Translations under genes and position numbers: made by a program
Notes under the pieces: generated by a model
Told to the model about the DNA's origin: nothing
The model's database searches: none
What the model saw: only the letters and a program-made list of their open reading frames with translations
Source: Phycisphaerae bacterium
GTDB lineage: Bacteria > Planctomycetota > Phycisphaerae > Sedimentisphaerales > Anaerobacaceae
Assembly (NCBI GenBank): GCA_017993835.1
Contig: JAGOLX010000020.1
Span: 1-64,000 of the forward strand
Length of the DNA stretch: 64,000 nt
Direction: 5' to 3'
In this document: one piece after another, positions 1 through 46,332 of the stretch
How positions within the stretch are numbered: position 1 is the first letter of the stretch
Layout: each line of letters begins with the position of its first letter

Positions 1-297
1 ATGGGCGGCGGCATGATGGGCGGCATGGGCGGCGGCATGATGGGCGGCATGGGCGGTGGCATGGGCGGCATGGGCGGCGGCATGATGGGCGGCATGGGCG
101 GCTAGGGCGGCGGCATGGGCGGCGGCATGATGGGCGGCATGGGCGGCGGCATGGGCGGCTACGGCGGCGGCATGGGCGGCGGCATGGGCGGCATGGGCGG
201 CGGCATGATGGGCGGCATGGGCGGCATGATGGGTGGCATGGGCGGCATGATGGGTGGCATGGGTGGCATGATGGGCGGCATGGGCGGCGGCATGATG
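1..297 (+). repeat. Gly-Met (GGM/GGMM) codon repeat in the secretin leader, with in-frame TAG at 103-105
   Basis: Near-identical 9-15 bp units of GGC GGC ATG with ATG ATG doublets run from the first base to about 297. They encode (Gly-Gly-Met)n with a Tyr at 160-162 (GGC TAC GGC). At 103-105 the equivalent position reads TAG in an otherwise identical context. Tracts like this expand, contract and assemble badly, so both the length and the stop codon are suspect. In protein terms it is a flexible, very Met-rich linker before the secretin domains. Confidence 0.9.
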
Positions 298-1550: not shown

Positions 1551-4500
1551 ATGAAAGAGCAGATTCAGGAGCGACCCAGCGCCTGGCGGCTGCTGATTAG
1601 CTCAATGCTGATCGTCTGCGCGCAGGTGAGCCTGGCAGCGGCGGGTGAACTCTCCCTTTCCTCTTTATCGGACACGATCGGCCTGCAAGGCACGTCCTCA
1701 GACGGGGGCGGCGCCTTGCTGGTGCGTTTTGTGGACAGCGACACGGCTCCCCAGACCTGTCCGGACCTTCTGGGACCGCGCACACAGCGAGCCCGTCGTG
1801 CGGCGATCGCCAACGCGGTCGTCGAGGGCGCCGACGTGGCGACTCAGTACGACGAGGTCGTGCCGGGCTTGAGCCTGGTGACATTGCCGCAGGGGATCTC
1901 GCCCGCCGAGGCGGCGTTGCGGTTCACGGCCTGCGCCGACGTCCTATATGCCGAGCCCAACTACAAATATCAGCTCGATCGCACGCCCAACGACGCCATG
2001 TTCGCGCAGCAGTGGGCCCTGAACAACACCGGTCAGAGCGGCGGGCTCCTGGACGCCGACATCGACGCCACGGAGGCCTGGAACACCACGACCGGCAGCA
2101 AGGACGTCATCGTCGCGGTCCTGGATACGGGAATCGACCCCACCAATGCGGATGTGGCGTTGAATCTCTGGCAGAACAGCAAGGAGACGAAGGGCACGAG
2201 CGGCACCGACGACGACGGGAACGGCTACATCGACGACTTCAGCGGCTACAACTTCATCGGCGACAACACCGACCTGACGGATGAGGTCTACCACGGGACC
2301 TACGTCGCCGGCATCATCGGCGCGTACGGGAACAACCAGATCGGCATTGCCGGCGTCTGCTGGAACGTCGGCCTGATGATCTGCAAAGTGGCCGACGCCG
2401 ACGGAGTGAACCTGGATGCGGCGGTCGCCGCGGTCCAGTACGCGACCGCCTCAGGCGCCAAGGTCATCAACGCCTCCTGGAGCGGGCCGGCGTACAGCAA
2501 GAGCCTGCGGGACGCGATCGAGGCGGCCGGCGAGAAGGGCATTCTCTTCGTCGCTTCGGCCGGCAACGGCTCCGCGAACACGGATAATGTCGGTGCGCAG
2601 GTCTATCCTGCCGGCTACGATCTGTACAACATCATCTCGGTCATGGCGACCAACAGCCGGGACCAGATGGCTGCGACGACGAACTGCGGCCTGCACTCGG
2701 TGGACATCGCTGAGCCGGGCGAGGAGATCCTGAGCACGATGCCCATGACGGCCACCGATGTGATGACCGAAATCGGGCTGGCTCCGGAATATGGTACGCT
2801 CAGCGGAACCTCCGTCGCGGCACCCCACGTCTCCGGCGTCTGCGCGCTGATGCGGTCCAAGTCCGGCGCGCTGACCTACCACCAGATCAAGCAGATCCTG
2901 ATGCAGACGTCGGACAAGGTTGTGCCGGGTCTGTGCCAGTCTCACGGCCGCGTCAACGCGGCCAACGCGCTGGCCATGATCCCGACCGGCACCCTGGGCA
3001 GGGTGCTCAACACACGGGACGATCCGAACGACACTGCGAGCTTCTACACTTCGCTGCAGGAAGCCATCGACGACGCCAACGACGGAGACACCCTGATCGC
3101 CGAGGGCGGCACGACCGGCACCAAGCTCTTCCTCGAGCGGATCGACTTCAAAGGCAAGGCGATCACCGTCCGCAGCGGCAACCTTGCCAACCCCTCGGAC
3201 CCGACCCTCTATCCCGATACGACGGTCATCCTCGGCCTGGCCACCGAGGGATCGGTCGTGACCTTCGCCCATGGGGAAGGTCGTGACACCGTCCTGAAGG
3301 GCTTCACCGTCGCCTGGGGCGTCGCCGACTACGGCGGCGGCATCAGTTGCGTGGACGCTTCGCCCACGATCAGCGACTGCATCATCCGCAACAACCACGC
3401 CCGCCTGTACGGCGGCGGCATGGACTGCCTCGGCGGCTCGCCCGAGATCGTCGATTGCGTCATTCACGACAACGTCGCCTACGACGCCACCGCCTTTGGC
3501 GGCGGTCTGAACTTCCAGGACGCGGAGCCCACGATCACGAGTTGTACTATCCGCAATAATTCCTCCCAGGGCGCCGGCGGCGGTATCGCCTTCGCGAACT
3601 CCTCGGGCACGATCTTCAACAGCTTCCTGCTGAACAACTCCGCGGTCGGCGGCAGCGGCCAGATCGATCTGGACGCCTCTTCCCCGACGATCACGAACTG
3701 CACGATCCTCGTCGAGGACGGGACGCCGGCCCGCGACGGCGGCATCTGTGCCTTTAGCGGCTCTTCCCCGACGATCACCAACTGCATTCTCTGGGGCAAC
3801 GGCGACGATCTGTTCGGCTGCTGGGCGACGTACTCCTGCATCGAGGACGAAGACGGCGGCGCCGGCAACATCCACGCGCAGCCCAATTTCACCCAGGGTC
3901 CCAACGGCGTCTACTTCCTGAGCCAGACGGCTGCAGGACAGACCTTGGGCAGTCCCTGCGTCGATGCGGGCGATCCGAACACTGGAACTTCCGTGGCCGC
4001 CATGACCACGCGCACCGACGGCGTCGCCGACAGCGGCGCGCCCGACCTCGGCGCGCACTACACCGCCTTCGCGGCCTCCTACTATCCATTGACGGTCACG
4101 GTCATCGACGCCAACGGCGCGCCGGTGGACGCCAACGACGCCTGGGGCACGGTCGATCCGAACGCCGGGTCGTACCGCCTGTTCGAGGTCGTCCAGGTCA
4201 CCGCGAAAGTCAGAGACGGCTACCGGATCAAACGCTGGGTGGGCACGCCTGACGACACGCAGAAGGACTCTGCCCTGACGTTCACGGTCAGCGGTCCCAT
4301 CAACCTCCAGGTCGAGTTCGAGCCGGTCCCGCTGTACCGCCTGGTCACCCGCGTGGCGGGTCGGTGGAAGGTCGAAGGCAGCGATGAGAGCTGCGCGATC
4401 TCGCCGGACCACAGCCGGGGGGTGTATTACCGCGAAGGGCAGGTCGTGACTGTGACCGCGATCCCGGTGGGCACGTACATCATCGATCGTTGGACCGGGA

Positions 4501-7500
4501 CGGACAACGACGCCTCCTGGGCCCTTACGAACGCCGTGACGATGACCTCCGACAAAGAGGTGACCGTCAGCTTCACGCAGCCGCGGACCCTGATGGTTCC
4601 CGGCCAATACCCGAACATTCAGTCCGCGGTGGATGCCGCGAGAACCCACGGCGACTCGGTCGTGGTCAAGAGCGGCACCTACTACATCAAGCGGCCCATC
4701 AACTTCGGCGGCAGGGCGATCACGCTGAGCAGCTCGAACCCGGACGATCCGGCCTGCGTCGCTGCGACGGTCATCGACTGCGACGATCCGAACGTGACCG
4801 ATCCGGACCTGTTGGGCGAATGCCGTGCGTTCACGTTCGACAGCGGCGAGGGGACCGATTCGGTCATCGATGGCTTCACGATTCGCAACGGGAACGGTCA
4901 CGACGCAGGGGGCGATCCATACACCAGCCCCGGCACCGCGACCAACGGCACCACCGCCTACGGCGGCGCTATTGCCTGTTTCAACGGAAGCAGTCCGACG
5001 CTGTCCAATCTGATTATTCAGAACTGCAAGGCGTATGGCCAGCTCGGGGGGGCCGCCAGGACGACGGCGGATGCGCCGGATGCTGCTGCGGCGACGGCCG
5101 ATGCTGAGGAGGCGTTGGAGCAGGATCCGGACCCGGATCCGCGGGACCCGAATTCGACCGATCCGAACGCCCCGGCGGATCCGAATGCCGGCATGCCGGG
5201 AGCGAATGGCGCGAACGGCAATGATGGTGCGGCGGGTCAGGACGGCCAGGCGGGCGAGCCCGGCCTGGACGGCGGCACCGCTGGTTCCGCCTATGGCGGC
5301 GCTTTCTACTTCGACGCCAACAGCGCGCCGATCATTCTCAGTTGCACGATTACCGACTGCTGCGCCGTCGGTGGCGACGGCGGCGTCGGCGGCCAAGGCC
5401 AGGATGGTCAGGACGGTCAGACCGGCCAGGCCGGCCAGGATGGTCAGCAGGGCCAGAACGGCGGCGAGCCGGCGGAAGGCACCGATGGCGCCCAGGGCGC
5501 CGGCGGCAACGGCGGCAACGGCGGCGCCGGCGGCAACGGCGGCAAGGGTGGTGACGGCGGCAACGGCGGCAAGGGCGGTGACGGCGGTGAAGCCCTCGGC
5601 GGCGCCATCTACTTCGGACCCAACTGCCGACCCACGATCAAGTACACCACGATCCTGGGCTGTTTGATTCGCCAGGGCGTCGGTGCTGACGGCGGATCTG
5701 CCGGCGCCGGTGGCGCGGGCGGTGATGCCGGCGCGGGCGGTCTCGGCGCCGATGGCGGCGATGGCGAGCCCGCCGGAGCAGCGGGTGCCGACGGCGCTGC
5801 CGGCACAGGCGGCAACGGCGGCAACGGCGGCAATGGCGGCGCCATGGGTAGCAACGGCGCACGCTGCCTGGGTGGCGGCATCTACTTCGGCGAGAACTGC
5901 CAGGCGGAAATCTCCGACACGGTCGTCAGTGGAAGCTTTACTGACGTGGACGCGGCTACGGAGGTCTACCCCGGCGGCGCAGGCGGCAACGGCGGCGCCG
6001 GCGGCAGCGACGGCGGCAATGGCGGCAACGGCGGCAATGGCGGCGACGGCAACGCAGCCGGCGCCTTGGGCACGGGCGGTTCCGGCGGCGCCGGCGGCGG
6101 CGCCGGCGGCAACGGCGTTCCCGGCTTGACCGTCAGCTATCCCGTTCCGCTGGCCAACTACGGCGGCGGCATCTACTACGGCGAGGGCTGCTCCGTCGTC
6201 CTGACGAGATGCACGATCAGCAACAACACCGTCCACGAGGACAACGGCGGCGGCGAGTACTACAGCGACAACTGCACCACGGTCCTGACGAACTGCACGA
6301 TCAGCGGGAACATCGCGGGCACGGAGCCCGAGGACCCCAATTTCATCCTCGACGGCTATGCCCACGGCGGCGGCCAGGCCTTCGGCGTCGGCTGCTCGGC
6401 CACCATTGTCGGCTGCACCTACAGCGGCAACGTGGCGGAAGGCGACGGCGGCGGTCTCTACGTCTGGTATGAGTGCGACATCGACATCAACGACTCGACG
6501 TTCACCGGCAACGACGCCAACACGCCGCAGGACAGCGCCGGCGGCGGCATCTATGCCGGCGGCGTCCTCGACATCGACACGTGGACCTACTACAACGGCG
6601 GCACGATCCGCGTGCAGAACAGCACGTTCACCGACAACGCCGCGGCCTTCGGCGCCGGCATGTACTGGTACGGCAACGACGCCGACGTGCTCGTGGCCGA
6701 CTCGGCGTTCCGCACGAATACCGCGGAGCACGGCGGCGGCCTCTACTGGAACCGCGGCGCGCCGACGATCAGCGGTTGCGTCATTCGGGGCAACACGGCT
6801 ACCGGCGCCACGAGCACCGTCCTTACCGAGGACGTCGACGAGAACGATCCGAACGTGGTCAACCTCGTGGTGTCGAACACCGAGGCGGACTGCGGCACTG
6901 GCGGCGGTCTGCACTGCCTGGATTCCGACGCGCTCATCCAGAACTGCTACCTCAGCGAGAACATCAGCAACGGCACCGGCGGCGGCGCCTACTTCGCCAG
7001 CGGCCGGCCGATCGTGAACAACTGCCTGGTCAACGGCAACACGGCCGCCATCGGTGGCGGCGGCATCGCCTCTCAGTGGGATGCGGCGCCGACGATCAGC
7101 AACTGCACGATCGTCGAGAACGGAGCCTCGGACTCGAGCAACGGTTTGACCCGCGGCTACGGCGGCGGTCTGTTCTGCTCCTACGAGAGCCAGACCATCC
7201 TGATGAACAGCATCCTGTGGGGCAACACGGGCCGCTACGGCAGTCAGATTGCCATCGGCAGCAAGGACGACCCGACCTATCTGCAGTACCCCGCCGGTCT
7301 GACGGTGAAGTACTGCGATATCCAAGGCGGTCAGCCGGGTGTCCACATCGAAGGCGGACGCACCCTCAACTGGCTCGCGGGCAACCTCAGCAGCGATCCG
7401 TTATTCGTGGCCCCCTACTTCCTGAGCCAGGCCGCGGCGGGCCAGCCGCAGACCAGCCCGGCGGTGGATGCCGGCAGTGCCCTGGCCAGCCAACTGGGTC

Positions 7501-10500
7501 TTGATTCCGCCAGCACGCGAAGCGACAACGTCGCCGACGCGGGCCCGGTGGACCTGGGGTACCACTACATCGGCCAGGGCCAGTACCAACTGACCGTCAC
7601 CATCATCGGCGGCCACGGCACCGTGCAGCCGCTCGGAGGTCGCTACCACGAGTTGCAGACGGTGACCCTCACCGCGATCCCCGATCCGAACTACCGCGTC
7701 CGGGTGTGGACGGGCACCGACGACGATCCGGCTTGGGACGACAACACCAACACGGTGACCTTCAGCGGCAGCGACATCGCGGTCACGGTGGAGTTCGAGC
7801 CGGACCTCATCAACGAGCTGCTCGTGCCCGCAAACTATGCGACGATCGAAGATGCCGTCGCGGCGGCCGGGCAGGGCGGCACGAAGATCGTGCTCGCCGA
7901 AGGGACCCACACCGTCTCCTCCCCGGACGGCATCGATTTCGAAGGCAAGACGATCGTCATCACGTCGCTCGACCCGAACGATCCGAGCGTCGTTGCCAGC
8001 ACGATCATCGACGCCGCGGGCGACTCGTTCAGTCCTCGCCGTGCGTTCCACTTCCACAGCGGAGAGGACCCCAATTGCATCATCACCGGTGTTACGATCA
8101 CCAACGGCTACGTCCGCGGCGAGCGAGGCGCCGACGGCCGGTTCGGCGTCATTCAGCCCAACCCTTACGATGGGCTGCCGATTGATCTTTACGATCCGCT
8201 GAGGCCCCGCGCGGAGCGCGGCGCCGACGGGACCGGCGACTCCTACGGCGGCGCCGTCCTGTGCGAAAACGGCAGCTCGCCCCTGTTCCGCAATTGCGTG
8301 ATCACCGGCTGCATCAGCACCGGCGGCCACGGCGGCACCGGCGCGGAAGGCCAGACCACCACGCCGCAGCCCGACTATCCGACGGACTGGACTTATCTGC
8401 CGCCAGCCACGGCGGAAGATCCCGATCCCACTGAGCAGACCACCGGCGATGGGCAGTGGGGCGGCTACGGCGGCACCGGCACAGGCATCGGCCACGGCGG
8501 CGCCCTGGCCTGCCTCGACGGGAGCAATCCCCTCCTGATCAATTGCGTCTTCTCGAACAACACCGCCTACGGCGGCATGGGCGGCGACGGCGGCGATGGC
8601 GGCAACGGCAGCGGCGACGAGAGCTGGGGCGGCGATGCAGGCCACGCGATCGGCGACGGTCGCGGCGGCGCCATCTATTGCGGGACCGGTAGCGCCCCGG
8701 TCATTCGCAACTGCCAGTTCCTGAACAACTTCGCCCGCACGGGCGTCCCCGGCCTGGGTGGCGCCAGGGGCTCCGGAAACACGCTGGATGCCCCGTATGG
8801 GCCTGCCGACGACGGCAGCGACGGCCTCACGATCACGTACGGCGTGGCCACCGGCGGCGCGATCTTCTATGACTCCCAGAGCAGCGCAGACATTGTCGAC
8901 TCGAACTTCGTGACAAACCAGGCCTTCACGGCCGTCCTCGCTACCGTCGCAGGCGGCGTCTACTCCGAGATCCAGACCGATACGAAAGGCGGCGCCATCT
9001 ACGCCGTCTCGGGCTGTGCCATCGATTTGGATGGGTGCCAGTTCCTCAATCACAACGGCGGCGCCCTGTACATGGTCGCCCGGTCCGCGGCGGATGTCAA
9101 TGACTGCCTGTTCACGGGCAACGCGAGGAAGGACCGCTCCCTGACGGACTACATTGGATACACTCCCACGTCATCTCTGCTTACCATGAGCCAGGGGGCG
9201 AGCGCCGATGTCTCGACGACCTTCGAGGGCGGCGCCATCTACATGGGGGTCGGCTCCTCTCACTTCAACGTGACGAACTCCCAGTTCTTCGGCAACGTAA
9301 CCGACGATCGCGGCGGTGCGGTTCGCACCCGGTCCAACGCCACGGTCAAGAACTGCCTGTTCGGCAGCAACGAGGCCGCGAACATCGGCGGCGGATTCGA
9401 CGCCTACTATGAGAATGGCTATCCGGCGGCCAGCGCGATCCTGACGGTGAACTTCGAGCGATGCCTCTTCACCGGCAACCGCGCCTACAAGAACACCGAA
9501 GGCTGGGGTGGCGGCGTCTACCTCAAGGACGTCAACGCCGTATTCAACGATTGCAGCTTCGTCAACAACCGAGCCCGCAACGGCGCCGGCCTGACCGCCT
9601 CGGGCGGCGTTGTGACGTTGGCCCGGGCAGTGGTCCACGGCAACACCGCCATCGGCTCCAGCACCGGCGGCGACGTGGGCGGCGGTCTGCTCTTCGCCGA
9701 GACCCCGGCGACGATTACGGACAGCCGGTTCAGCAATAACGTGGTTCAGGGTGTCGACGCCGCCGGCGGCGCGATCTGCTTCTACGGCGGGTTCATCGAG
9801 CACGTGGTCAAGAACTGCCTGTTCACCGGCAACTCGTCGAATGCCTACGGTGGCGCGGTCTCCTGCACCGCCTATGCGACGCCCAAGATCAGCTTCTGCA
9901 CGTTCGTCGAGAACACCGCACGGACGCTGGGCGGCGCGATCTACACCGACTGGATGTCCGATGTCTCGGTCAACAACTCGATCTTCCAGGCCAACGACCA
10001 TCGCAGCATCGGGTCGGTGGACTCCGACGAGGACAACCGGATCGCCTGCTGCCTGTTCCACAATAACCCGGACGGCGACTACGGCCTGTACGACAGCGCC
10101 ACGGGACAGACCAGCCAGGCGGCGGGCGACAGTCTGGGCACGACCAACCTGACCGGCGACCCGCTGTTCGTGGCGGGTCCGCTGGGCGACTACTACCTCA
10201 GCCAGGTCTCGGCGGGCCAGACCGCGGACAGCGCGGCCCTCGACCAGAGCAATCTACTGGCCTCCGACAGCGGCATGGACCAGTACACCACGCGGACCGA
10301 CAACGGCCTGGACAGCGGCAACGCCGATCTCGGCTACCACTATCGCGATGCCACCGGGCTGCCCCACTACACCCTGACCGCGAGCGTCGGAGACGGCAAC
10401 GGGACCGTCGCGCCCACGAGCGGGACGTACTACGCCGGCACGCTGGTCGTGCTGACCGCGACGCCGGTCGCGAACTACACGCTCGCCCAGTGGACCGGCA

Positions 10501-13500
10501 CGGATGACGACGCGTCCACGTTGATGGAAAACCCCGTCATGATGTGGTCCGATCGCACGGTGGTCGTCACGTTCGCCAAGGCCCGGATCATTCGAGTGGA
10601 CGACAGCGCCTACCGCGGGAGCATCCAGCGGGCGATCGAAGACGCCAACAACGGCGACACCGTCGTGGTGCCGACCGGCACGTACAGTCCGCACTACATA
10701 GGCAACCTCTCTGCGCCGATCGTCATCGAAAAGGCCATCACGCTGACCAGCGAGAATCCGGACGACCCGGATTGCGTCGCAGCTACCGTTATCGATCACG
10801 TTCAGTTTATGGTCGCGACGACGGATGGTGAAGCGACCATCGAGGGCTTCACGATCACCAACCGCGATGTAAGCGCTATGCAAATCCTGAGTTGCTCGCC
10901 CACGCTGCGCAACTGCGTCTTCACGAACTGCCGGATACCTCGCACCGATAACCCGAACAACACAATTCCTGCGGACGATGGTCCCGACGGTGATCCTGCT
11001 TATGGCGGCGCCATAGACATCGAGGGCGGTTCGCCCACGGTTGTGGGATGCACCTTCAGCGGGTGCTCCGTCACGGGCGGCCGCGCAGGCGACGGCGACG
11101 GCAATGCCAACGGTCAGGGACATGACGGTGGCTGGCCCGGCTATGCCTACGGCGGCGCCGTCTACTGCGCCAGCGGCAGTCCGACGTTCACGAATTGCCG
11201 CTTCGTGGATTGCTATGCTCAGGGCGGTATTGGCGGCAAGGGCGGCAACGGAAACCCGGCGAACAACCCCCCGGGACGCGGCGGCGGTTTCATCGGTTCC
11301 GATGCTGAAGAGGAAGAGTATGCCTTGGAAACCGGGTGGAATGGCGAGTGGCTGTATGGTCCCTATATGGACTACTGGAAGTACAGCGGGTACGGCGGCG
11401 CCGTCTACTGCGAGTACGGCAGCTCGATCAGGTTCGTCAACTGCACGTTCGAGAACAACTACGTCCTCAGCGGGCTCAGCGGCATCGGTGGTGATTCGTT
11501 CGTTCCCGAACTCAGTCGAATGCCGGAGCAGCCGGTCGACATTGAATGCTTCGGCGGTGCCTTGTACGCAGGCTACAACAGCAGTTATGAGCTGGTGAAC
11601 TGCACGTTCAGTGGCTGCTGGGCGGAACGCGAATTCGATCCGAACGGCGTGCCGGGCGGCCCAGCCATCACAGGCACCGAAGTCCTCTATCCGGATGATC
11701 CGTACCTCGGCTACGGCGGCGCGGTGGCCATCGAGGAGTCCAGCTCGATCACGATGATGAACTGCACGATCGTCGACTGCAACGCCACGATCGGCGGCGC
11801 CATCTACGCGGCGGATTCCGAACTCGGCCTGGCCGACTGCAACCTGGCGACCAACACCGCCTATCACGGTGGGGCCGTCTACCTCGCCGAGGGGACGGGC
11901 ACGATCGACGGCTCGACCTTCTTCCGCAACGTCGCGGACTACGAGCCCAACGACGTGTACCGAATCTTCGACGCCAATCTCTACCAGGTGGGCACGATGT
12001 TCAGCAACGGCGGCGCCTACTTCGGCGTCACCTCGCCCGTGCAGATCCTCAACAGCACCTTCCGCGAGAACGAAGCCAGCGCCTCCGGCGGCGGTCTCTA
12101 CTTCACCGGCGCCGCGGAGCCGCTCCTGCAGAACTCCCTCGTGACCCGGAACAAGGCCGGTCGCGACGGCGGCGGCGTCTCCGCCAAGTGGTATGCCGAT
12201 CCCACGATCTCCAACTGCACCTTCACCGAGAACAAGGTCACCGGTGCGCTCGGAGACGATCCCGGCTACGGCGGCGGTCTCTACGTCTCCTATAACAGCA
12301 GCGCCACGGTGATCAACTCGATCCTGTGGGGCAACTTCGGAGTCGACGGCGCCCAGTTGGCGATCGGCAGCGGGAACGACGACGGCGTATACGCGTCCGG
12401 CGTGACGATGTCGTACAGCGACATCGGACCCGCGTTCGACCCGAACGACATGATCGATCCGCTCGCGACGGTCGCGAAGTCCGGCGTCCAGGCGGAAACC
12501 TCCGTCGGCGCGACCGCCGGAGGCGACGTCCTGATCGACTCCGCCACGATCGACGCCGAGCTCGCTTCCAAAGGCAGCGCCGCGGTCATCGTGACGCTCC
12601 ACGAGCCCGACGGACGCGATGCGGTCGATTGGAACAGCCGCGAGGCCGTGGTGCAGTTCCAGGCCCGGCTCGCCAATCGGCGGGCGACCGTCCTCAATGC
12701 CTTCCAGCCGGGCGAGTTCACCGCTCGCCAGACGTACGCGAACGTGGCCTCCTTCTCCGGCCAAGTGACCAAGGCCGGTCTGGACCGCCTGAAGACCAAC
12801 CCCTCGGTCCGGCACATCGAGCCGGTCCGCTACGCCAAACTGGCGATGCGCCAGGCTCTGGCTCTGGGCAACGCCCGGGAGATCCGCCACACCTACAACG
12901 GGCGGGGCATCTCCATCGCCATCGTGGACTCGGGTGTCGATTACACGCATCCGATGCTTGGCGGAACCGGCAACGCCGCGACGAGCACCTTCCCCAATGA
13001 GAAGGTGATCGGCGGCTACGATACCGCGGAGAACGACCCCGATCCGATGCCGGTGGTCGTGGCACACGGCACATGCTGCGCCGGCATCGCGGCCGGCGAA
13101 CTCGCCTCGGTCGAGGATTACATCGGCGGCGTCGCCTATGGCGCTCGGATCTACGCTCTCAAGATCGGAGCGGACGACGGGAACATCCCGACGGACGCCG
13201 CCCTGGGAGCTTGGGACTGGTGCATCACCCACCGCAATGACGATCCGGAACACCCGATCAAGGTCATGAGCAATAGCTGGGGCCTGAGCGTGGCGTTCGA
13301 CGACGCCAATGTGGCGGATGCCTATTCGCCGAGCATGGCGGTTCTGGCCGACACGGCAGTCAGCGTGGGCATCACGATCGTGGCGGCCTCGGGCAATGAG
13401 TTCTTCACCACGGGAATCGGCTGGCCGGCGGCCATGTCCAATGTGATCTCCGTGGGCGCCTTGTACGACGTGAGCGGTCTTGTGACGGACTACTCCAATG

Positions 13501-16500
13501 CGGCGGAGAACCTGGATGTCCTGGCGCCTGCCGACCCGGTCTACACGCCGGATATGGTCGGCGCCGCGGGCTACGACGCCGGCGATTACTTCCCATCCTT
13601 CGCCGGCACGTCGTCCGCCACGCCGTTCGTGGCCGGCTGCGTCGCCTCGATTCAACAGGCGGCCCTCGAACGGCTCGGCAGGTACCTCACTCCTGCCGAG
13701 GTCGAGGAACTCATCGAGACCACCGGCGACCTGGTGACCGACACGAAGGTGGCGATCACGAAGCCCCGAGTGAACCTCGGTGCGGCCCTGACGCTGCCCA
13801 GCGGTCCGCCGATCTACATCGGCGCCGACTGCGAGCTCAACGGCTGGCTGGCCGCGGAAACCGCGACGTACCCGACGTGGGATTCGACCCTGTGGGGCGC
13901 CGATGCCGGCGTCATCGTGGCCGATCCGTGCTTCATCTCCGGCTACTACCTGAGCCAGACGGCGGCGGGACAGGACTCGCAGAGCCCGGCGGTTGATGCC
14001 GGCAGCGACTCCGCCCAGACCATCGGCCTGGCGGATCGTACGACCCGCATCGACGGCGTCTTCGACGCCAACCGCGTGGACCTCGGCTACCACTACGCCG
14101 AGGCGGTGCCGGTCTATCAGTTGACCGTGACCGTGGTGGCCGACTCGAGCGGCCAGACCCACGGCGCCGTGCAGCCCGGCAGTGGTTCTTATCTGGAGGG
14201 TACGGAACTCGCTCTCAAGGCGGTGCCCGAGACGGGCTACTACCTGCAGGGTTGGTATGACGCGAACGATACGCTCCTGTCCCTCCGGCCCGAGTACAAC
14301 GTCGTCGTGGACGCGAACCGGGTCCTGCGAGTCCGGTTCCGTCTGCCCGAGGAGATCGTGGTCGGCAGCGAAAAGGCCACCGGGATTCAGGAGGCGGTCG
14401 ATTCGGCCGCCAACGGCGACACGATCATCATCTCGGCGGGCGTCTACAGCGGCTCGATCAACCTGCGCGGCAAGCAGATCCGTCTGACCAGCACGAATCC
14501 CGACGATCCTGCGGTCGTCGCTCAGACGGTCATCGACTGCGGCGCCTCGGGACGCGCCCTGATCTTCAACAGTGGCGAAGGTCCCGACACGATCATCACC
14601 GGCATCACGATCATGAACGGCGCCACCTTGCAGGAACCCGGCGCCGCGGTGTACATCGGCGCGGGCTGCAGCCCGACCTTCATCAACGTCATGATCAGCA
14701 ACTCGGCCGTCTCGTTCTCCAGCGGCGGCGCCGTCTACATCGGCGCCAACGCCAACCCGACGTTCACGAACGTGCAGATCGACAACTGCCACGCATGGAA
14801 CGCGATCGTTGTTGATACGGGCCAACCCTTCGGCGCCGGCAGTGCAGGCGCGGTTTACATCCACACCGGCAGCAGGCCGACGTTCACCAACTGCTCGTTC
14901 ACGAACTGCACGGCACTCGGCTACGGCGGCGCCATCTACTGCGGCCCGGACGGCCTGGCGACGTTCACGAACTGCCGGTTCACCGCCAATGACGCCAACG
15001 ATCGCGGCGGCGCGGTCTATCACGTGTCTGGAGCGGCCTCGAAGTTCGTCCAGTGCACCTTCTCGGAGAATGCGACGGACCTCCTCGGCGGCGCCGTGTT
15101 CTATGGTCGCGAATGCACCATCGAGGTGAGCGACTGCAACTTCACGGAGAACCTCGCCGACGAGAGCGGCGGCGCCCTCTACCTCAGCGACCAGTGCGCC
15201 GGCTCGATCGGCCGCAGCGTGTTCACGCACAACGACGTGAACGAGGCCGGCGGCGCGATCTACATGACCGGCAGCAGTATCGAGATCGCCGACTGCAACG
15301 TGGCCTACAACTCGGCCCATCGCGGCGGCGGCCTGTACTGCTACGATACGCCGGATTCGAAGATCCTGCGGTGCTCGATCAAACACAACGAGGTCCTGGG
15401 CGTCCAGCGGCAGTTCTTCCTGCCCATCGACGGCACGTCCGCTCCGATCTCGCCGACCGATCCGAACTTCGTGTACGACGTGAACGCGGTCGTGATCGAG
15501 AACGTTCGCGGCGGCACGGCGGCGGCCCAGGGCGGCGGCGTCTATGCCTACGCCGGTCCGGCGCTGATCTCGGATTGCCAGATCAGCCACAACGCGGCGG
15601 CCACCTCGGGCGGCGGTTTGTACCTGACGGCCGGCCGGTCCGATCTCCGGACCCTGTTCAACTGCCTGGTTACGGACAACTCGGCCGGCAGGGACGGCGC
15701 CGGCATCTCCTGCAGTTGGCAGGTCAACGCTCGAATCGCCAACTGCACGATCGGCAACAACTCCGTCAAGAGCCTCGCGGGAGAGGCGCTCGGAGCCGGT
15801 GTCTACGCCGGATACGGGTCCAACGTCGTCGTGACGAACTCCATCGTGTGGGACAACGTCAGCAGCGACAACGGCTCGCAACTGGCCGTCACGGGCGAGA
15901 CATCCAGCCCGTCCGCCATGCAGGTGACCTATAGCGACGTCGAGCCCAGTCCCGATCCCAGCGCCTCCGCGGTGGGTCTGGACATGGTCTTTGTGATCGA
16001 TTCGACGGACACGATGATCCCCTCCATGAGGTACGTCCGGGAGGCGGCGGCCAAGATCGCCAATGCGATCGACGCCAATGTCGCCGACTGCCGCATGGCG
16101 GTCGTGGACTTCCGCGACTTCAACGATACGGACCGAGCGGGCGGCGTCGCGACGGACTACCCGTACCGCGTCGTGACCCCGTTCACCGAGGACGTCGACA
16201 CGGTCGTCAGCGCGATCAACTCGGTCACCGCGGTGGCCGGCGCCGGCGGGCCTGAACTGGCGGAGTCGGTCTACTATGCCCTGACTCAAACGGCCGATGC
16301 CAATGACCTCGACGAATGGCGAACCGGGCGCGTGGCCCGCGTCGTCCTGCTGATTGGCGACGGCGTGCCGCACAATCCGGAACTCGTCGTGGGCTATCGG
16401 CTCAGCGATGTCGTCGAGGCCCTGTCGAGGGAGTCGAGCAAGAGGGTCCACACCCTCCAGATCGGCGAGGCCAACGACGTGCAGGCCTACTACGAGGCCC

Positions 16501-19500
16501 TGGCGAACCTGACCGACGGCGTTGCCGTGCAGGCGACGGATGCCAACGACATGACGGTGGAAACGGCCGCGGTCGTGGCGGGCATTCTGCCGCTCACGAG
16601 GGCCGGGTCGTCGATCTACGTGGCCGACGGCTCCACGCTGTCGGGCTGGAATGCCGGCACACAGACCTGGGACCCGAATCTGGGCAATATCGATGCCGAC
16701 CCGTACTTCCTGGCGGGCTACTACCTGGACCAGACGGCGGCCGGCCAGTCGCGTCAGAGCCCGGCGATCGACGCCGGAAGCGGATCGGTCGATCCGAATA
16801 GCAGTCTGGGCGCCCGCACCACGCGTGCCGACGGCGTTGCCGACTCCGGCACTGTGGACATGGGGTACCACTACGCCCAGGGTGTGACGCTCTATACGTT
16901 GACGGCCCAAGTGCTGCCCGACGCAGCCGACGGGTTGGTGCACGGCATTGTGACGCCTGCCATCTCCGTGGTGTACGAAGGCTCGACCGACAACGTCATC
17001 CGCCTGGAAGTGAAAGCGGAAGACGGCTGGCGGGTCAAGGCCTGGACGGGCACCGACGACGACACGTTGACCAGCCTGGTCAATTATGTGACGCTCACGT
17101 CGGACCGGCAGGTGACCGTCACTCTGCAACAGCGCACGGCCCGGGTCGTTACCGTGCCGGGCGACTACACGACCATCCAGGGGGCCGTCACGGCCTCCGA
17201 AGACGGCGACACAATCCTCGTCGATCCGGGTACCTACTACAGTGGATACGGCGACGTCGGCCTGATCATGAGCAAGGAGATCACCGTTACGTCCCGTAAC
17301 CCGGACGATCCGTGTGCGGTGGCCTCGACGGTGATCAGCGGCCCCGGCGGCATCGGCGGCAACACCTGGAGCCGCCTGGGCGTGGTGTTCACCGGTTCTG
17401 CGGGCCGGCGTACCGTGCTCAATGGCTTCACGATCGAGAACTTCGGCGGCATCGCCGATAACGGCGACGACGGAGATCGGGCCGGTGGGCATCCCAATGG
17501 CGAGGATGGCGTGCCGATCCAGGGTGCGGCCATGATCCTGCTGCCTGGCGCAAGCCCGACGATCAAGAACTGCGTGATCCGCAACAACTCCATCACCGGC
17601 GGCGACGGCGGCAACGGCGTCGCAGCCACGACGAGCCAGAACGCGGGTCGCGGTGGTTGGGGCGGTTGGGCTCGCGGCGGCGCGATCTACTGTGCGTCCA
17701 ACACCAATCCGTTGTTCGTCAACTGCACCATCGAGAACAACTCCGCGCAAGCCGGCAGCGGTGGCAACGGCGGCGCCGGCGTCGATAGCGGCGGTCTGGC
17801 CAACTATGGCGGCAACTACACTCCGTCCCTGCCCATCGACATCGATCCCGACAGGCTCGGGGCGACCGCGGTCGCGAAGGACCTGTGGAGGATCTGGGAA
17901 TGGGACTATGCCACCTACATTCAGATGGTCTTCGCGTCCGAGAGTGTCTCCCTCAGCGTGAGCAACGTGCCTTTGGGCGGTGGCTCGTACATCGGTGATT
18001 ACCGCTGGTACTCCGCCTACGGCGGCGGCGTCTTCATCGATGCCGCAAGCAAGGCCGAGTTCGTCGAGTGCACCCTTCGTGGCAACAGCACCGTCGGCGG
18101 CATGACCGGCCAGGGCGGCGCCCAGCCGCCGACCGGCAGGCTCACCGAGCCGTTGACCGCCTTCGAGGTGCCCAGCTACGGCGGCGCCGTCTACTGCGCC
18201 GCCGACACGGTGGTGGCGTTCCGAGGCTGCAACTTCGAGAACAATACCGCCTCGGCCGACTCCGGCAACTTCCGGTCGGATCCCTACGTCGGCTTCGGCG
18301 GCGGCGTCGCAGCCGAGTACTCCGCCAGCGTGTCCTTCGAGGACTGCAACTTCGTGGATAACGAAGCGGATACCGGCGGCGCCGTCTATCTGGCCGACGC
18401 GGTCGCAAGCCTGATGGACACGATCCTGGCGACGAACACCGCGATCCGCGGCGCCGGTGTGGCCGGCGTGGGCGGCGAGATCGGCATCGCCGGTTGCGAG
18501 GTGAGGAACAACATCGCCATCGTCAACGCCGGCGACGTTGCCGGCGACGGGGTCGTGGCCGCGGGTGCGGGCATCTTCTTCTCGTCTGCGAGCGGTACGA
18601 TCCAGGACTGCAACATCGCAGGCAACTCCGCCGACGGCTCCGGCGGCGGCATCTACCTCCGCGGGGAGGACAGCACGTCGATCGTCAACTGCCTCATCCG
18701 CGGCAACCTGGCGACCCGCGACGGCGGCGGCATCTCGACCAACTGGTATGCCACGCCGATGATCCGGAACTGCACGTTCTACGCGAATCAGTCCATCGAT
18801 CCGAACAACGACCAGGTGGGTCTCGGCGGCGGCCTGTTCTGCGGCTACTTCAGCGATGCCAACGTCGTCGATTGCATCTTCTGGGAAAACGGCGGCCGCC
18901 TCGGGACGGAACTGGCGGTCGGGACCGGCTTCGATCTCGATCCGCATTGCGGTACGCTCCGTGTGTCGTACAGCGACATCTTCGCCGGTCCGAACGACGT
19001 GTACGTCGATGTCGGCTGCACGCTGGTGTATGGCGAAGGCATCCTCCGCAAGGATCCGAAGTTCGTGGAAGGCCCGCTGGACAACTTCTACCTGAGCAAC
19101 AAGAGCCCGTGCGTCGATGCCGGCAGCAGCCTGGCCAGTGTGGTCGGAATGTCGCGGTACTCGACGCGAACGGACAGCGAGCCCGACACCGGAGTGGTGG
19201 ATATGGGATACCATCACGCGATCCTCGAGCCGTGCAAGTTCTGCGACCTCGTCTACGACGGCGAGATCACGTTCGAGGACTTCGCGAAGTTCGCCAGCCA
19301 GTGGCTCAGCACGGGCTGCTCTGCCTCCGATGGCTGGTGCAACGGCGCCGACTTCACGTTCGACTCGGCTGTCGATGCCTTCGACCTGGCCTTCTTCGCA
19401 GATTGCTGGTTGGTCAAGGACGAGACCGCTCCGCTGCCGAATCCGTCCGCGTGGGCAGTCGAGCCGTACATGGCCGACGATAGCGCCGCCCGGATGGTGG

Positions 19501-20357
19501 CCGTTGAGGCGGTCGATTCCTGGGGTTGGGATGTCGAGTACTACTTCGACTGCGTCTATGGCGACGGCCACGACAGCGGCTGGATTACGAGCCGGTCCTA
19601 CGTGGACAGCGGCCTGGCCAAGGGTGTCGAATACGGCTATCGCGTCAAGGCGCGTGACCTCTCGCCCTGGCGCAACGAGACCGAGTGGTCCGAAATCAAG
19701 ATCGCCGGAACCGCCGATAGGGTGGCGCCGACGCCCGAGCCGTACATCCAGTCGATCTCTGCCGTAGCGGGTTCCTATACTTCGATTACCATGGCGGCCA
19801 GGATTGCCTACGATGACAACGGCGTCCAGTACTACTTCGATGCCAACGAAGCGGACGGCGGCCACGACAGCGGCTGGATCGACAGCCAGGTCTACACCGA
19901 CGTGAATCTACCGCCGGAGACGACGCACTGCTACCGCGTCAGGGCCCGCGACCTCTCGGCCGCGAACAACCAGACCGAGTGGTCCGGCTGGATCTGCGCT
20001 ACGACGAATGTGGCGCCGGAGTCGGATCCCCCGACGCCCAGCCCGATGCAGTTCGATCCCAACGAGATGCCGCACGAGGTCTATGGCGGTCTCGGCAACT
20101 GGGACTACTACGCCGAGATGACGGCAGTCACGGCGACCGACCCCAGCGGCGGGGTACAGTACTACTTCCTGTGCGAAGAGCCCTACGATGATGAATATCC
20201 GGCTGGCTTCTCCAGCGGCTGGCAAGATGATCCGACGTGGTCCGTCCCGGTCGGTGGCAAGAACCGGAGTCTGCGGTTCAAAGTCAAGGCCCGTGACGTA
20301 TACGGCAATGAGACGGAGTACTCGGATTGGGCGAAGATGACTATCATTGGTCAATAA
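1551..20357 (+). CDS. Giant exported multidomain protein: two subtilisins, six beta-helix modules, VWA, dockerin-like, Fn3-like
   Basis: A 6,268-residue secreted protein. ATG 1551 is chosen over TTG 1533 because GGAAGTAGG precedes it at SD distance. Order: signal peptide (about 1-32); prodomain; S8 protease with Asp192, His248 (HGTYVAG) and Ser421 (SGTSVAAPH); six right-handed parallel beta-helix modules, each opening with an 'IQxAVxAAxxGDT' motif and the first five closing with InlB/Listeria-type repeats (WTGTDDD). Module 2 carries Gly-rich collagen-like loops (about 1219-1523). Module 4 contains an inserted I9 prodomain plus a second S8 domain (Asp3793, His3839, Ser4021; about 3627-4084). 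Module 5 contains an inserted VWA domain (about 4800-5019, MIDAS-like DSTDT). A dockerin-like segment (about 5894-5957) and three Fn3-like repeats ending in 'KARD.. ETEWS' finish it. Coils show Asn/Cys ladders (TFTNC, GGAIYC). Likely a cell-surface or extracellular protease/adhesin. A terminator follows. The protein family is recognisable; the substrate is unknown. Confidence 0.93.
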   Translation: MKEQIQERPSAWRLLISSMLIVCAQVSLAAAGELSLSSLSDTIGLQGTSSDGGGALLVRFVDSDTAPQTCPDLLGPRTQRARRAAIANAVVEGADVATQYDEVVPGLSLVTLPQGISPAEAALRFTACADVLYAEPNYKYQLDRTPNDAMFAQQWALNNTGQSGGLLDADIDATEAWNTTTGSKDVIVAVLDTGIDPTNADVALNLWQNSKETKGTSGTDDDGNGYIDDFSGYNFIGDNTDLTDEVYHGTYVAGIIGAYGNNQIGIAGVCWNVGLMICKVADADGVNLDAAVAAVQYATASGAKVINASWSGPAYSKSLRDAIEAAGEKGILFVASAGNGSANTDNVGAQVYPAGYDLYNIISVMATNSRDQMAATTNCGLHSVDIAEPGEEILSTMPMTATDVMTEIGLAPEYGTLSGTSVAAPHVSGVCALMRSKSGALTYHQIKQILMQTSDKVVPGLCQSHGRVNAANALAMIPTGTLGRVLNTRDDPNDTASFYTSLQEAIDDANDGDTLIAEGGTTGTKLFLERIDFKGKAITVRSGNLANPSDPTLYPDTTVILGLATEGSVVTFAHGEGRDTVLKGFTVAWGVADYGGGISCVDASPTISDCIIRNNHARLYGGGMDCLGGSPEIVDCVIHDNVAYDATAFGGGLNFQDAEPTITSCTIRNNSSQGAGGGIAFANSSGTIFNSFLLNNSAVGGSGQIDLDASSPTITNCTILVEDGTPARDGGICAFSGSSPTITNCILWGNGDDLFGCWATYSCIEDEDGGAGNIHAQPNFTQGPNGVYFLSQTAAGQTLGSPCVDAGDPNTGTSVAAMTTRTDGVADSGAPDLGAHYTAFAASYYPLTVTVIDANGAPVDANDAWGTVDPNAGSYRLFEVVQVTAKVRDGYRIKRWVGTPDDTQKDSALTFTVSGPINLQVEFEPVPLYRLVTRVAGRWKVEGSDESCAISPDHSRGVYYREGQVVTVTAIPVGTYIIDRWTGTDNDASWALTNAVTMTSDKEVTVSFTQPRTLMVPGQYPNIQSAVDAARTHGDSVVVKSGTYYIKRPINFGGRAITLSSSNPDDPACVAATVIDCDDPNVTDPDLLGECRAFTFDSGEGTDSVIDGFTIRNGNGHDAGGDPYTSPGTATNGTTAYGGAIACFNGSSPTLSNLIIQNCKAYGQLGGAARTTADAPDAAAATADAEEALEQDPDPDPRDPNSTDPNAPADPNAGMPGANGANGNDGAAGQDGQAGEPGLDGGTAGSAYGGAFYFDANSAPIILSCTITDCCAVGGDGGVGGQGQDGQDGQTGQAGQDGQQGQNGGEPAEGTDGAQGAGGNGGNGGAGGNGGKGGDGGNGGKGGDGGEALGGAIYFGPNCRPTIKYTTILGCLIRQGVGADGGSAGAGGAGGDAGAGGLGADGGDGEPAGAAGADGAAGTGGNGGNGGNGGAMGSNGARCLGGGIYFGENCQAEISDTVVSGSFTDVDAATEVYPGGAGGNGGAGGSDGGNGGNGGNGGDGNAAGALGTGGSGGAGGGAGGNGVPGLTVSYPVPLANYGGGIYYGEGCSVVLTRCTISNNTVHEDNGGGEYYSDNCTTVLTNCTISGNIAGTEPEDPNFILDGYAHGGGQAFGVGCSATIVGCTYSGNVAEGDGGGLYVWYECDIDINDSTFTGNDANTPQDSAGGGIYAGGVLDIDTWTYYNGGTIRVQNSTFTDNAAAFGAGMYWYGNDADVLVADSAFRTNTAEHGGGLYWNRGAPTISGCVIRGNTATGATSTVLTEDVDENDPNVVNLVVSNTEADCGTGGGLHCLDSDALIQNCYLSENISNGTGGGAYFASGRPIVNNCLVNGNTAAIGGGGIASQWDAAPTISNCTIVENGASDSSNGLTRGYGGGLFCSYESQTILMNSILWGNTGRYGSQIAIGSKDDPTYLQYPAGLTVKYCDIQGGQPGVHIEGGRTLNWLAGNLSSDPLFVAPYFLSQAAAGQPQTSPAVDAGSALASQLGLDSASTRSDNVADAGPVDLGYHYIGQGQYQLTVTIIGGHGTVQPLGGRYHELQTVTLTAIPDPNYRVRVWTGTDDDPAWDDNTNTVTFSGSDIAVTVEFEPDLINELLVPANYATIEDAVAAAGQGGTKIVLAEGTHTVSSPDGIDFEGKTIVITSLDPNDPSVVASTIIDAAGDSFSPRRAFHFHSGEDPNCIITGVTITNGYVRGERGADGRFGVIQPNPYDGLPIDLYDPLRPRAERGADGTGDSYGGAVLCENGSSPLFRNCVITGCISTGGHGGTGAEGQTTTPQPDYPTDWTYLPPATAEDPDPTEQTTGDGQWGGYGGTGTGIGHGGALACLDGSNPLLINCVFSNNTAYGGMGGDGGDGGNGSGDESWGGDAGHAIGDGRGGAIYCGTGSAPVIRNCQFLNNFARTGVPGLGGARGSGNTLDAPYGPADDGSDGLTITYGVATGGAIFYDSQSSADIVDSNFVTNQAFTAVLATVAGGVYSEIQTDTKGGAIYAVSGCAIDLDGCQFLNHNGGALYMVARSAADVNDCLFTGNARKDRSLTDYIGYTPTSSLLTMSQGASADVSTTFEGGAIYMGVGSSHFNVTNSQFFGNVTDDRGGAVRTRSNATVKNCLFGSNEAANIGGGFDAYYENGYPAASAILTVNFERCLFTGNRAYKNTEGWGGGVYLKDVNAVFNDCSFVNNRARNGAGLTASGGVVTLARAVVHGNTAIGSSTGGDVGGGLLFAETPATITDSRFSNNVVQGVDAAGGAICFYGGFIEHVVKNCLFTGNSSNAYGGAVSCTAYATPKISFCTFVENTARTLGGAIYTDWMSDVSVNNSIFQANDHRSIGSVDSDEDNRIACCLFHNNPDGDYGLYDSATGQTSQAAGDSLGTTNLTGDPLFVAGPLGDYYLSQVSAGQTADSAALDQSNLLASDSGMDQYTTRTDNGLDSGNADLGYHYRDATGLPHYTLTASVGDGNGTVAPTSGTYYAGTLVVLTATPVANYTLAQWTGTDDDASTLMENPVMMWSDRTVVVTFAKARIIRVDDSAYRGSIQRAIEDANNGDTVVVPTGTYSPHYIGNLSAPIVIEKAITLTSENPDDPDCVAATVIDHVQFMVATTDGEATIEGFTITNRDVSAMQILSCSPTLRNCVFTNCRIPRTDNPNNTIPADDGPDGDPAYGGAIDIEGGSPTVVGCTFSGCSVTGGRAGDGDGNANGQGHDGGWPGYAYGGAVYCASGSPTFTNCRFVDCYAQGGIGGKGGNGNPANNPPGRGGGFIGSDAEEEEYALETGWNGEWLYGPYMDYWKYSGYGGAVYCEYGSSIRFVNCTFENNYVLSGLSGIGGDSFVPELSRMPEQPVDIECFGGALYAGYNSSYELVNCTFSGCWAEREFDPNGVPGGPAITGTEVLYPDDPYLGYGGAVAIEESSSITMMNCTIVDCNATIGGAIYAADSELGLADCNLATNTAYHGGAVYLAEGTGTIDGSTFFRNVADYEPNDVYRIFDANLYQVGTMFSNGGAYFGVTSPVQILNSTFRENEASASGGGLYFTGAAEPLLQNSLVTRNKAGRDGGGVSAKWYADPTISNCTFTENKVTGALGDDPGYGGGLYVSYNSSATVINSILWGNFGVDGAQLAIGSGNDDGVYASGVTMSYSDIGPAFDPNDMIDPLATVAKSGVQAETSVGATAGGDVLIDSATIDAELASKGSAAVIVTLHEPDGRDAVDWNSREAVVQFQARLANRRATVLNAFQPGEFTARQTYANVASFSGQVTKAGLDRLKTNPSVRHIEPVRYAKLAMRQALALGNAREIRHTYNGRGISIAIVDSGVDYTHPMLGGTGNAATSTFPNEKVIGGYDTAENDPDPMPVVVAHGTCCAGIAAGELASVEDYIGGVAYGARIYALKIGADDGNIPTDAALGAWDWCITHRNDDPEHPIKVMSNSWGLSVAFDDANVADAYSPSMAVLADTAVSVGITIVAASGNEFFTTGIGWPAAMSNVISVGALYDVSGLVTDYSNAAENLDVLAPADPVYTPDMVGAAGYDAGDYFPSFAGTSSATPFVAGCVASIQQAALERLGRYLTPAEVEELIETTGDLVTDTKVAITKPRVNLGAALTLPSGPPIYIGADCELNGWLAAETATYPTWDSTLWGADAGVIVADPCFISGYYLSQTAAGQDSQSPAVDAGSDSAQTIGLADRTTRIDGVFDANRVDLGYHYAEAVPVYQLTVTVVADSSGQTHGAVQPGSGSYLEGTELALKAVPETGYYLQGWYDANDTLLSLRPEYNVVVDANRVLRVRFRLPEEIVVGSEKATGIQEAVDSAANGDTIIISAGVYSGSINLRGKQIRLTSTNPDDPAVVAQTVIDCGASGRALIFNSGEGPDTIITGITIMNGATLQEPGAAVYIGAGCSPTFINVMISNSAVSFSSGGAVYIGANANPTFTNVQIDNCHAWNAIVVDTGQPFGAGSAGAVYIHTGSRPTFTNCSFTNCTALGYGGAIYCGPDGLATFTNCRFTANDANDRGGAVYHVSGAASKFVQCTFSENATDLLGGAVFYGRECTIEVSDCNFTENLADESGGALYLSDQCAGSIGRSVFTHNDVNEAGGAIYMTGSSIEIADCNVAYNSAHRGGGLYCYDTPDSKILRCSIKHNEVLGVQRQFFLPIDGTSAPISPTDPNFVYDVNAVVIENVRGGTAAAQGGGVYAYAGPALISDCQISHNAAATSGGGLYLTAGRSDLRTLFNCLVTDNSAGRDGAGISCSWQVNARIANCTIGNNSVKSLAGEALGAGVYAGYGSNVVVTNSIVWDNVSSDNGSQLAVTGETSSPSAMQVTYSDVEPSPDPSASAVGLDMVFVIDSTDTMIPSMRYVREAAAKIANAIDANVADCRMAVVDFRDFNDTDRAGGVATDYPYRVVTPFTEDVDTVVSAINSVTAVAGAGGPELAESVYYALTQTADANDLDEWRTGRVARVVLLIGDGVPHNPELVVGYRLSDVVEALSRESSKRVHTLQIGEANDVQAYYEALANLTDGVAVQATDANDMTVETAAVVAGILPLTRAGSSIYVADGSTLSGWNAGTQTWDPNLGNIDADPYFLAGYYLDQTAAGQSRQSPAIDAGSGSVDPNSSLGARTTRADGVADSGTVDMGYHYAQGVTLYTLTAQVLPDAADGLVHGIVTPAISVVYEGSTDNVIRLEVKAEDGWRVKAWTGTDDDTLTSLVNYVTLTSDRQVTVTLQQRTARVVTVPGDYTTIQGAVTASEDGDTILVDPGTYYSGYGDVGLIMSKEITVTSRNPDDPCAVASTVISGPGGIGGNTWSRLGVVFTGSAGRRTVLNGFTIENFGGIADNGDDGDRAGGHPNGEDGVPIQGAAMILLPGASPTIKNCVIRNNSITGGDGGNGVAATTSQNAGRGGWGGWARGGAIYCASNTNPLFVNCTIENNSAQAGSGGNGGAGVDSGGLANYGGNYTPSLPIDIDPDRLGATAVAKDLWRIWEWDYATYIQMVFASESVSLSVSNVPLGGGSYIGDYRWYSAYGGGVFIDAASKAEFVECTLRGNSTVGGMTGQGGAQPPTGRLTEPLTAFEVPSYGGAVYCAADTVVAFRGCNFENNTASADSGNFRSDPYVGFGGGVAAEYSASVSFEDCNFVDNEADTGGAVYLADAVASLMDTILATNTAIRGAGVAGVGGEIGIAGCEVRNNIAIVNAGDVAGDGVVAAGAGIFFSSASGTIQDCNIAGNSADGSGGGIYLRGEDSTSIVNCLIRGNLATRDGGGISTNWYATPMIRNCTFYANQSIDPNNDQVGLGGGLFCGYFSDANVVDCIFWENGGRLGTELAVGTGFDLDPHCGTLRVSYSDIFAGPNDVYVDVGCTLVYGEGILRKDPKFVEGPLDNFYLSNKSPCVDAGSSLASVVGMSRYSTRTDSEPDTGVVDMGYHHAILEPCKFCDLVYDGEITFEDFAKFASQWLSTGCSASDGWCNGADFTFDSAVDAFDLAFFADCWLVKDETAPLPNPSAWAVEPYMADDSAARMVAVEAVDSWGWDVEYYFDCVYGDGHDSGWITSRSYVDSGLAKGVEYGYRVKARDLSPWRNETEWSEIKIAGTADRVAPTPEPYIQSISAVAGSYTSITMAARIAYDDNGVQYYFDANEADGGHDSGWIDSQVYTDVNLPPETTHCYRVRARDLSAANNQTEWSGWICATTNVAPESDPPTPSPMQFDPNEMPHEVYGGLGNWDYYAEMTAVTATDPSGGVQYYFLCEEPYDDEYPAGFSSGWQDDPTWSVPVGGKNRSLRFKVKARDVYGNETEYSDWAKMTIIGQ
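5206..6120 (+). repeat. Collagen-like / Gly-rich coding repeats inside beta-helix module 2
   Basis: Four Gly-rich blocks (about 5206-5280, 5367-5588, 5683-5852 and 5971-6120) are separated by ordinary beta-helix coils (GGAFYF, GGAIYF, GGGIYF). The first two show Gly-X-Y periodicity (GQDGQAGEPGLDGG, GQDGQTGQAGQDGQQGQNG). The others are GGNGGNGG/GGKGGDGG runs. At DNA level these are tandem GGCGGCAAC and GGCGGTGAC units. They look like loop expansions on successive coils of one solenoid. Confidence 0.88.
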
Positions 20358-21872: not shown

Positions 21873-22011
21873 CGGTCACTCTCCTGTCAGAAGTCGATTC
21901 GTGGTTGCGGATTCCTGATTTGACTGCCTCGCAGTCGACAATCCCAAATGAAGAATCACACTCTACTATTAGAGGAAAACGCAGGAATTTGCAAGCAGAA
22001 CTTCGAGCGGG

Positions 22012-46186: not shown

Positions 46187-46237
46187 GTTTGGCCCCCGAT
46201 TCCACCATGGACGGCTCAGACTGCCGCGATCTCCATG

Positions 46238-46328: not shown

Positions 46329-46332
46329 CTGC

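Follow-up and report, generated by a model that had tools for sequence, protein, structure and literature searches.

A giant protein of the Sedimentisphaerales with a recurrent module-end loop that appears to act as a socket for whole folded domains

Giant bacterial proteins are usually presented as strings of domains without visible purpose, and the 6,268-residue protein described here raises the question of whether such a chain is built to a rule. Its gene lies on the plus strand of a 64,000-nt stretch of DNA (the window, to which all coordinates refer; residues are counted from the ATG at 1551). The stop-free frame starts at TTG 1533 or ATG 1551 and ends at 20357; a GGAAG-like ribosome site stands ahead of the ATG and a predicted signal peptide after it. 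From this ATG to the stop the gene (1551..20357) encodes a product of 646 kDa with a pI of 4.2, and the original prediction of an uninterrupted 18.8-kb frame of 6,268 residues is borne out. Third-position GC stays at 0.80-0.90 along the whole frame. Two long open frames run antisense on the minus strand (10254-19865, 3,203 codons, and 2451-7346, 1,631 codons); these were rejected as genes and are regarded as codon-usage shadows, which arise because the sense gene is nearly devoid of TTA, CTA and TCA (9 of its 6,268 codons). No Rfam or tRNA match was found within the window. Self-BLAST of the protein returned the full-length self as its sole match and is uninformative on repeats.

Against its counterpart in a genome of the same genus (G073), the giant shows 75% identity and a dN/dS of 0.29 over 5,881 aligned codons, with part values of 0.23 for the catalytic domain of an inserted protease, 0.23 for a VWA domain and 0.07 for a dockerin-like module. 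Purifying selection therefore acts along the entire chain, and on this sequence evidence the frame is neither a chance opening nor a decaying fusion. A 631-residue query spanning the inserted protease (protease 2) and its flanks found full or near-full-length matches in about 15 further genomes from the window's taxonomic family and at about 30 loci in named records, all of them Planctomycetota MAGs and several labelled Phycisphaerae or Sedimentisphaerales. It also matched a single-contig (closed) genome from a different family of the same order (G102), which thus has the inserted protease as well. Most relatives are MAGs; the longest related frame reaches 12,792 aa (G016), and a module-end profile (A1) matches 145 of the 161 genomes of the order Sedimentisphaerales. 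These data bear on a danger that the original prediction had itself raised, namely that the gene is a mis-assembly of shorter paralogues, and on a further one, that several genes were merged by frameshift correction. The window does begin at a contig end, the genome is a 115-contig assembly, and the giant of one relative (G015) is broken into several frames; against this, orthologous giant frames occur in many independent assemblies and in the closed G102 genome, the order from the N-terminal protease (S8_1) to the dockerin-like and Fn3-like end is conserved, and the same genes flank the giant on both sides. We consider an artefact of this kind extremely improbable, and at the level of the giant's family mis-assembly is refuted as far as genome comparison can tell.

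The chain starts with a predicted signal peptide of about 31 residues, read by eye and cut after LAAA (1551..1643), followed by a prodomain-like region inferred from sequence and conserved in relatives (1644..1982) and by subtilase 1, an S8 protease with the triad D192/H248/S421 (1983..2993; PF00082, E about 6e-52 to 1e-51). The triad is kept in all 13 relatives compared and the oxyanion Asn in 12 of them, and this N-terminal type (S8_1) makes up a deep, distinct clade in the protease tree. In the G018 giant (residues 150-504) the oxyanion Asn of the N-terminal protease has become Asp, making it a possible pseudoprotease. The G059 giant carries at this end (residues 77-505) a protease of the type otherwise found inserted further along the chain (S8_2).

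Behind subtilase 1 come six modules, and Pfam and NCBIfam searches bear out the six beta-helix/InlB-like units that had been predicted, with Beta_helix in each of the six and Divergent InlB B-repeats in all except module 6. GG[AG]x and FxxN motifs recur in the helix rungs; GG[AG][ILVMF] occurs 59 times, compared with a shuffled mean of 7.3 and maximum of 15, and weak matches to PF02415 and TIGR01376 were also obtained. By plan, a module is a Pmp-type right-handed beta-helix that runs into a Q-like end, most often with an InlB-type repeat behind it. The end of the helix is marked by a motif that we call up (NSILWGN..G.QLA.G...YSDI), followed by a second, dn (IYV..GC.L.GW...GNI..DP.F..YYLSQTAAGQ..SPAVDAGS..TTRTDGV.D...VDLGYHY), after which the InlB-type repeat usually comes next. 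HMMs of both motifs were used together with Pfam to delimit the modules. Module 1 (2994..4583; PF13229, PF18998, dn HMM) comprises a beta-helix, a Q-like end and two InlB repeats, and module 3 (7812..10583) a beta-helix, an end lacking the socket motif and an InlB repeat; neither has an up motif. In module 2 (4584..7802; beta-helix with Gly-rich loops, InlB repeat) and module 6 (17139..19223; beta-helix, no InlB repeat) up and dn are separated by only 5-6 residues. The Gly-rich loops of module 2 (about 5190-6170) contain collagen-like GXY triplets and long GGX runs, and similar glycine-rich loops occur in relatives.

Modules 4 (10584..14345) and 5 (14346..17132), each a beta-helix with an InlB repeat and both also covered by structural models, depart from this pattern: between up and dn lies a unit of 461 residues in module 4, protease 2, and of 224 residues in module 5, the VWA domain. 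Both are inserted at the equivalent loop of these successive modules, between the last regular helix strand (YSDI) and the next strand (IYV..GC.L.GW). The view of the protein as beads on a string therefore needs revision, in that its parts are as described while its organisation is different, protease 2 and VWA being nested within modules. Hereafter we refer to this loop as the socket, filled in modules 4 and 5 and empty in modules 2 and 6, and to the inserted units as cargo.

The cargo of module 4 (12426..13820) consists of an I9-like prodomain (about residues 3675-3758) and subtilase 2 (about 3769-4081; PF00082, E about 1e-39 to 8e-39), although Pfam I9 gave no match in the giant protein. 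With D3793/H3839/S4021 in addition to the triad of subtilase 1, both S8 domains have the complete triads expected of them, and both match PF00082. Triad and oxyanion residues are invariant over 31 aligned inserted copies, and the prodomain is retained whole in every inserted protease. For the module 4 segment, 858 aa long, an AlphaFold model built with 31 sequences reached moderate confidence (pLDDT 75, pTM 0.57). The best structural match of its cargo is an unprocessed pro-subtilisin (3whi_B; Z 35.2, rmsd 2.7, 323 residues), pro-forms of Tk-subtilisin score Z 33-34, and the pro-subtilisin alignment covers model residues 266-672, from the prodomain through the catalytic domain. The cargo is accordingly modelled as, and predicted to be, a complete pro-subtilisin zymogen. 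The prodomain of subtilisin is cut off autocatalytically at its C-terminus. Since the inserted protease resembles unprocessed pro-subtilisins, its activation should leave an internal nick in the giant where the prodomain meets the catalytic domain; with a predicted site near residue 3,760, maturation would give pieces of about 3,760 and 2,500 residues, and the nick would fall in the middle of the giant, whose two halves might be kept together by the beta-helix. In Hydrogenedentota, Verrucomicrobia and Planctomycetota the relatives of protease 2 occur as free-standing proteins made of a prodomain and an S8 domain, and our protease tree neither supports nor contradicts a single capture of the socket protease from such proteins of these three groups.

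The VWA domain of module 5 (15942..16613), which had also been predicted, scores 34.5 bits with PF00092 (cut-off 23.8), and its modelled fold matches integrin beta I-like domains with Z 22. Its MIDAS-like site, starting at D4817, reads D-S-T-D-T as opposed to the usual DxSxS, with DTTGSM or DSTGSM in many relatives. The model of the module 5 segment, 610 aa long and built with 7 sequences, is of moderate confidence (pLDDT 66, pTM 0.51).

Searching 27 stretches of relatives, the named loci and a further 20 stretches, drawn from this family and others, with the up and dn HMMs yielded 157 distinct up-dn pairs, in which the domain counts depend on custom-built profiles. The gap is 3-40 aa (empty, median 8 residues) in 84 of the 157 module ends and 220-476 aa in 71, each of the latter with exactly one recognisable cargo; the remaining two pairs are profile miscalls. 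Five types of cargo were found: prodomain plus S8 (n = 37, 449-476 aa), VWA (n = 20, 220-273 aa), NIDO (n = 8, 239-272 aa; PF06119, E 8e-27), an SMP-30/propeller-like domain (n = 3, 300-323 aa) and choice-of-anchor L (n = 3, 257-263 aa; NF038133, E 4e-74). Wherever a domain of one of these types is complete and sequence is available on both sides of it, it sits in the socket, the one exception being the N-terminal S8_2-type protease of G059. Occupancy differs with position: hosts of the module-2 type are empty in 19 of 19 cases and last modules adjoining the dockerin-like/Fn3-like tail in 42 of 47, and some relatives (L201, G033) have no cargo at all.

Other domains are found elsewhere in relatives (DUF7901, caspase-like C14 and C39-like), and the idea of the socket as sole place of insertion was dropped; by these profiles it is the dominant, not the exclusive, one. 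DUF7901 is inserted in a loop of the second, module-2-type module (L043, 11678-12655, in G016; also in G018 and G034). The G107 and G103 giants have a caspase-like C14 domain between the InlB repeats and the next helix, while the G051 giant has a C39-like peptidase placed one rung ahead of the socket; the loci with extra peptidases are L196 (residues 1033-1430), L204 and L198. The C14 and C39-like domains are predicted to be further peptidases mounted on the same scaffold.

Does the cargo descend with its host module or move between modules? A tree of 150 host-module rows with the cargo excised, a quick tree with many weak branches, requires at least 28 changes of cargo type, compared with a possible minimum of 5 and a shuffled mean of 63; content therefore partly follows the hosts and has partly been swapped. 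Well-supported groupings include a VWA host and a propeller host as sisters (G016_9914 and G015_1641), a clade of G018 VWA, G015 VWA, G016 S8 and two empty modules, and a NIDO host of G024 with a VWA host. At the DNA level, G016 and G015 modules hold unrelated cargos between flanks that show 82% identity as far as the YSDI codon and 77% from the start of the GWD strand; within the G018 protein, a VWA-filled and an empty module share 78% DNA identity over the 850 nt up to the socket. Recombination through homologous module flanks would be the simplest explanation of these sequence patterns. Taken together, the census of 157 pairs, the host tree and the flank identities therefore point to this loop as a natural exchangeable domain socket.

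We put a probability of roughly two in three (about 0.68) on the reading that the giant is a secreted modular scaffold in which one module-end loop serves as a socket for whole folded domains, with cargos exchanged between homologous modules. Almost as probable, in our judgement, is its order-wide form, according to which the permissive loop of repeated Pmp-type beta-helix modules is a cassette site where whole domains, including a zymogen that nicks its host internally, are swapped by flank recombination. For this the module-end loop would have to tolerate the insertion of an entire folded domain. In the models of modules 4 and 5, rungs of short strands are followed by the cargo and then by one more short-strand rung, a secondary-structure pattern from which we infer that the chain, once past the cargo, rejoins the same helix by stacking its next strand on it; the structural matches listed concern the cargo domains only. 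Should the protein instead be an ordinary end-to-end mosaic, the socket would be a favoured linker between a beta-helix and a separate Q-like C-terminal domain. The dn half does occur without the up half in modules of types 1 and 3, it resembles the separate NCBIfam choice-of-anchor Q domain, and helix stacking across the socket is a prediction. Yet empty modules join the two halves by just those 3-40 residues with the strand pattern continuing, and both models place a short-strand rung right after the cargo. We regard the linker explanation as unlikely while giving it some weight, and the five-fold exchange at one site stands even if it is correct.

A different doubt concerns the cargos themselves, which might be inert spacers or decaying passengers with neither enzymatic nor binding role. 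Many sockets are empty, relatives without any cargo exist, and the MIDAS of the window is atypical, all of which would fit such passengers; the invariant triad and oxyanion residues of the 31 inserted proteases, the equally low dN/dS of both cargos in the window (0.23) and the prodomain that is never lost argue the opposite, and we find inertness very hard to believe. On the socket reading, the giant would function as a secreted protease/adhesin scaffold: the proteases would digest or process extracellular protein, and VWA, NIDO and related cargos would bind substrate or cells.

How the giant leaves the cell and where it stays are questions for its tail and its neighbours. Module 6 is followed by a dockerin-like module with two EF-hand-like loops (19224..19418) and by three Fn3-like repeats (19419..20354), a tail that would anchor or position the giant. 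Both segments had been predicted; on the window sequence alone they fall below Pfam cut-offs (13.1 bits for the dockerin-like module, cut-off 22.9, and no Pfam match for Fn3), while family profiles support both, with E 1.2e-5 to the CelS dockerin and E 1.3e-8 to titin Fn3. A dockerin match is present in 8 of 9 family members (best E 2.6e-6). No PF00963 (cohesin) match was found in the genome, which is 99% complete, so that the dockerin-like module is without a known partner and a role as cellulosome component was rejected.

A secretin gene that has lost its 5' end at the contig end lies 96 bp upstream on the same strand (115..1455; PF00263, E 6e-30). Its truncated start holds a Met-Gly-rich repeat (1-368), and the full secretin of G016 measures 1,049 aa. 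Of the 20 family members with enough sequence to test, about 19 have a secretin gene immediately ahead of the giant gene and in the same orientation, and in the other families examined no upstream secretin was found; the genome has 12 secretins and about 17 T2SSE genes. Because of the predicted signal peptide and this synteny, export would proceed via Sec and then via the type II-like secretin encoded next door. An autotransporter was rejected, the C-terminus having no barrel domain, and no autotransporter barrel, sortase signal or transmembrane anchor was seen in the giant. Of the surface-attached degradative or adhesive machine originally proposed, what remains is a secreted, degradative and possibly adhesive protein, in keeping with the signal peptide, two intact subtilases, the VWA domain, the dockerin-like module under very strong selection and the secretin upstream; surface attachment finds no support, with neither anchor nor barrel seen and no cohesin.

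On the other side, a convergent chorismate synthase of 444 aa (20538..21872, minus strand; PF01264, E 1e-93) has counterparts 41-471 bp downstream of the giant in about 20 relatives. A second chorismate synthase lies alongside, in a 535-aa fusion with shikimate kinase, the two together spanning 20538-23619 (minus strand), and EPSP synthase is next (23616-24902). The 444-aa enzyme is 73-92% identical in relatives, aligns to part only of the fusion copy and is possibly a paralogue whose role has changed. Farther away, the window encodes a Memo-AMMECR1 fusion protein (43469-45031, minus strand) adjoined by a radical SAM gene (45212-47650).

For this giant, then, a rule of construction is readable, namely a beta-helix scaffold with a single defined place at which five or more unrelated folds can be inserted. 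The rule lets thousands of residues in Sedimentisphaerales giants be annotated, and the socket, as a natural counterpart of engineered beta-helix display platforms, offers a ready site for domain display. It also raises the puzzle of a self-cutting protease that would mature inside another domain without leaving its scaffold. A literature search that covered few subscription papers and no preprints turned up no account, in Planctomycetota or elsewhere, of repeated modules in which unrelated folds share one loop as their socket.

Several known systems share parts of this design. Huge proteins are reported to be frequent in Planctomycetota, with dockerin domains over-represented (PMC11573180); the giant, from the same phylum, exceeds 5,000 aa and is dockerin-like at its end, and that survey's treatment of lengths and domain content describes no socket. 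The Ssp subtilase autotransporter likewise couples a subtilase physically to a secreted beta-helix (PMC9977779), secretion being predicted for the giant, but in Ssp a single subtilase is attached to a single short beta-helix of 248 residues and exported by a barrel, whereas here the zymogen sits inside a module of a far longer repeated scaffold and there is no barrel. Pro-subtilisin E and Tk-subtilisin zymogens (3whi, 2e1p) have the same prodomain and catalytic architecture (Z 33-35) and are free-standing, in contrast to a zymogen tethered at both ends inside another domain. Chlamydial Pmp proteins form a right-handed beta-helix of GGA(I,V,L)/FxxN repeats with protruding loops, and one Phycisphaerae protein with such repeats has been noted (PMC10715098). 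The giant has similar repeated GGA(I,V,L)-like/FxxN rungs and protruding loops; it lacks the Pmp middle domain and C-terminal barrel (no Pfam match anywhere), ends in dockerin-like and Fn3-like segments and adds InlB repeats and inserted catalytic domains, whereas the Pmp study reports loops and not domain sockets (PMC10715098). The closest parallel in principle is the SPATE autotransporter Hbp, whose beta-helical stem also bears side domains, which can be replaced by foreign proteins that are still exported (PMC3521207). That exchange was engineered at five sites of one protein exported by its own barrel, while the giant family would reuse one equivalent loop of its repeated modules naturally, for five or more unrelated folds. 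The individual parts are thus known, and it is the shared socket that appears to be new.
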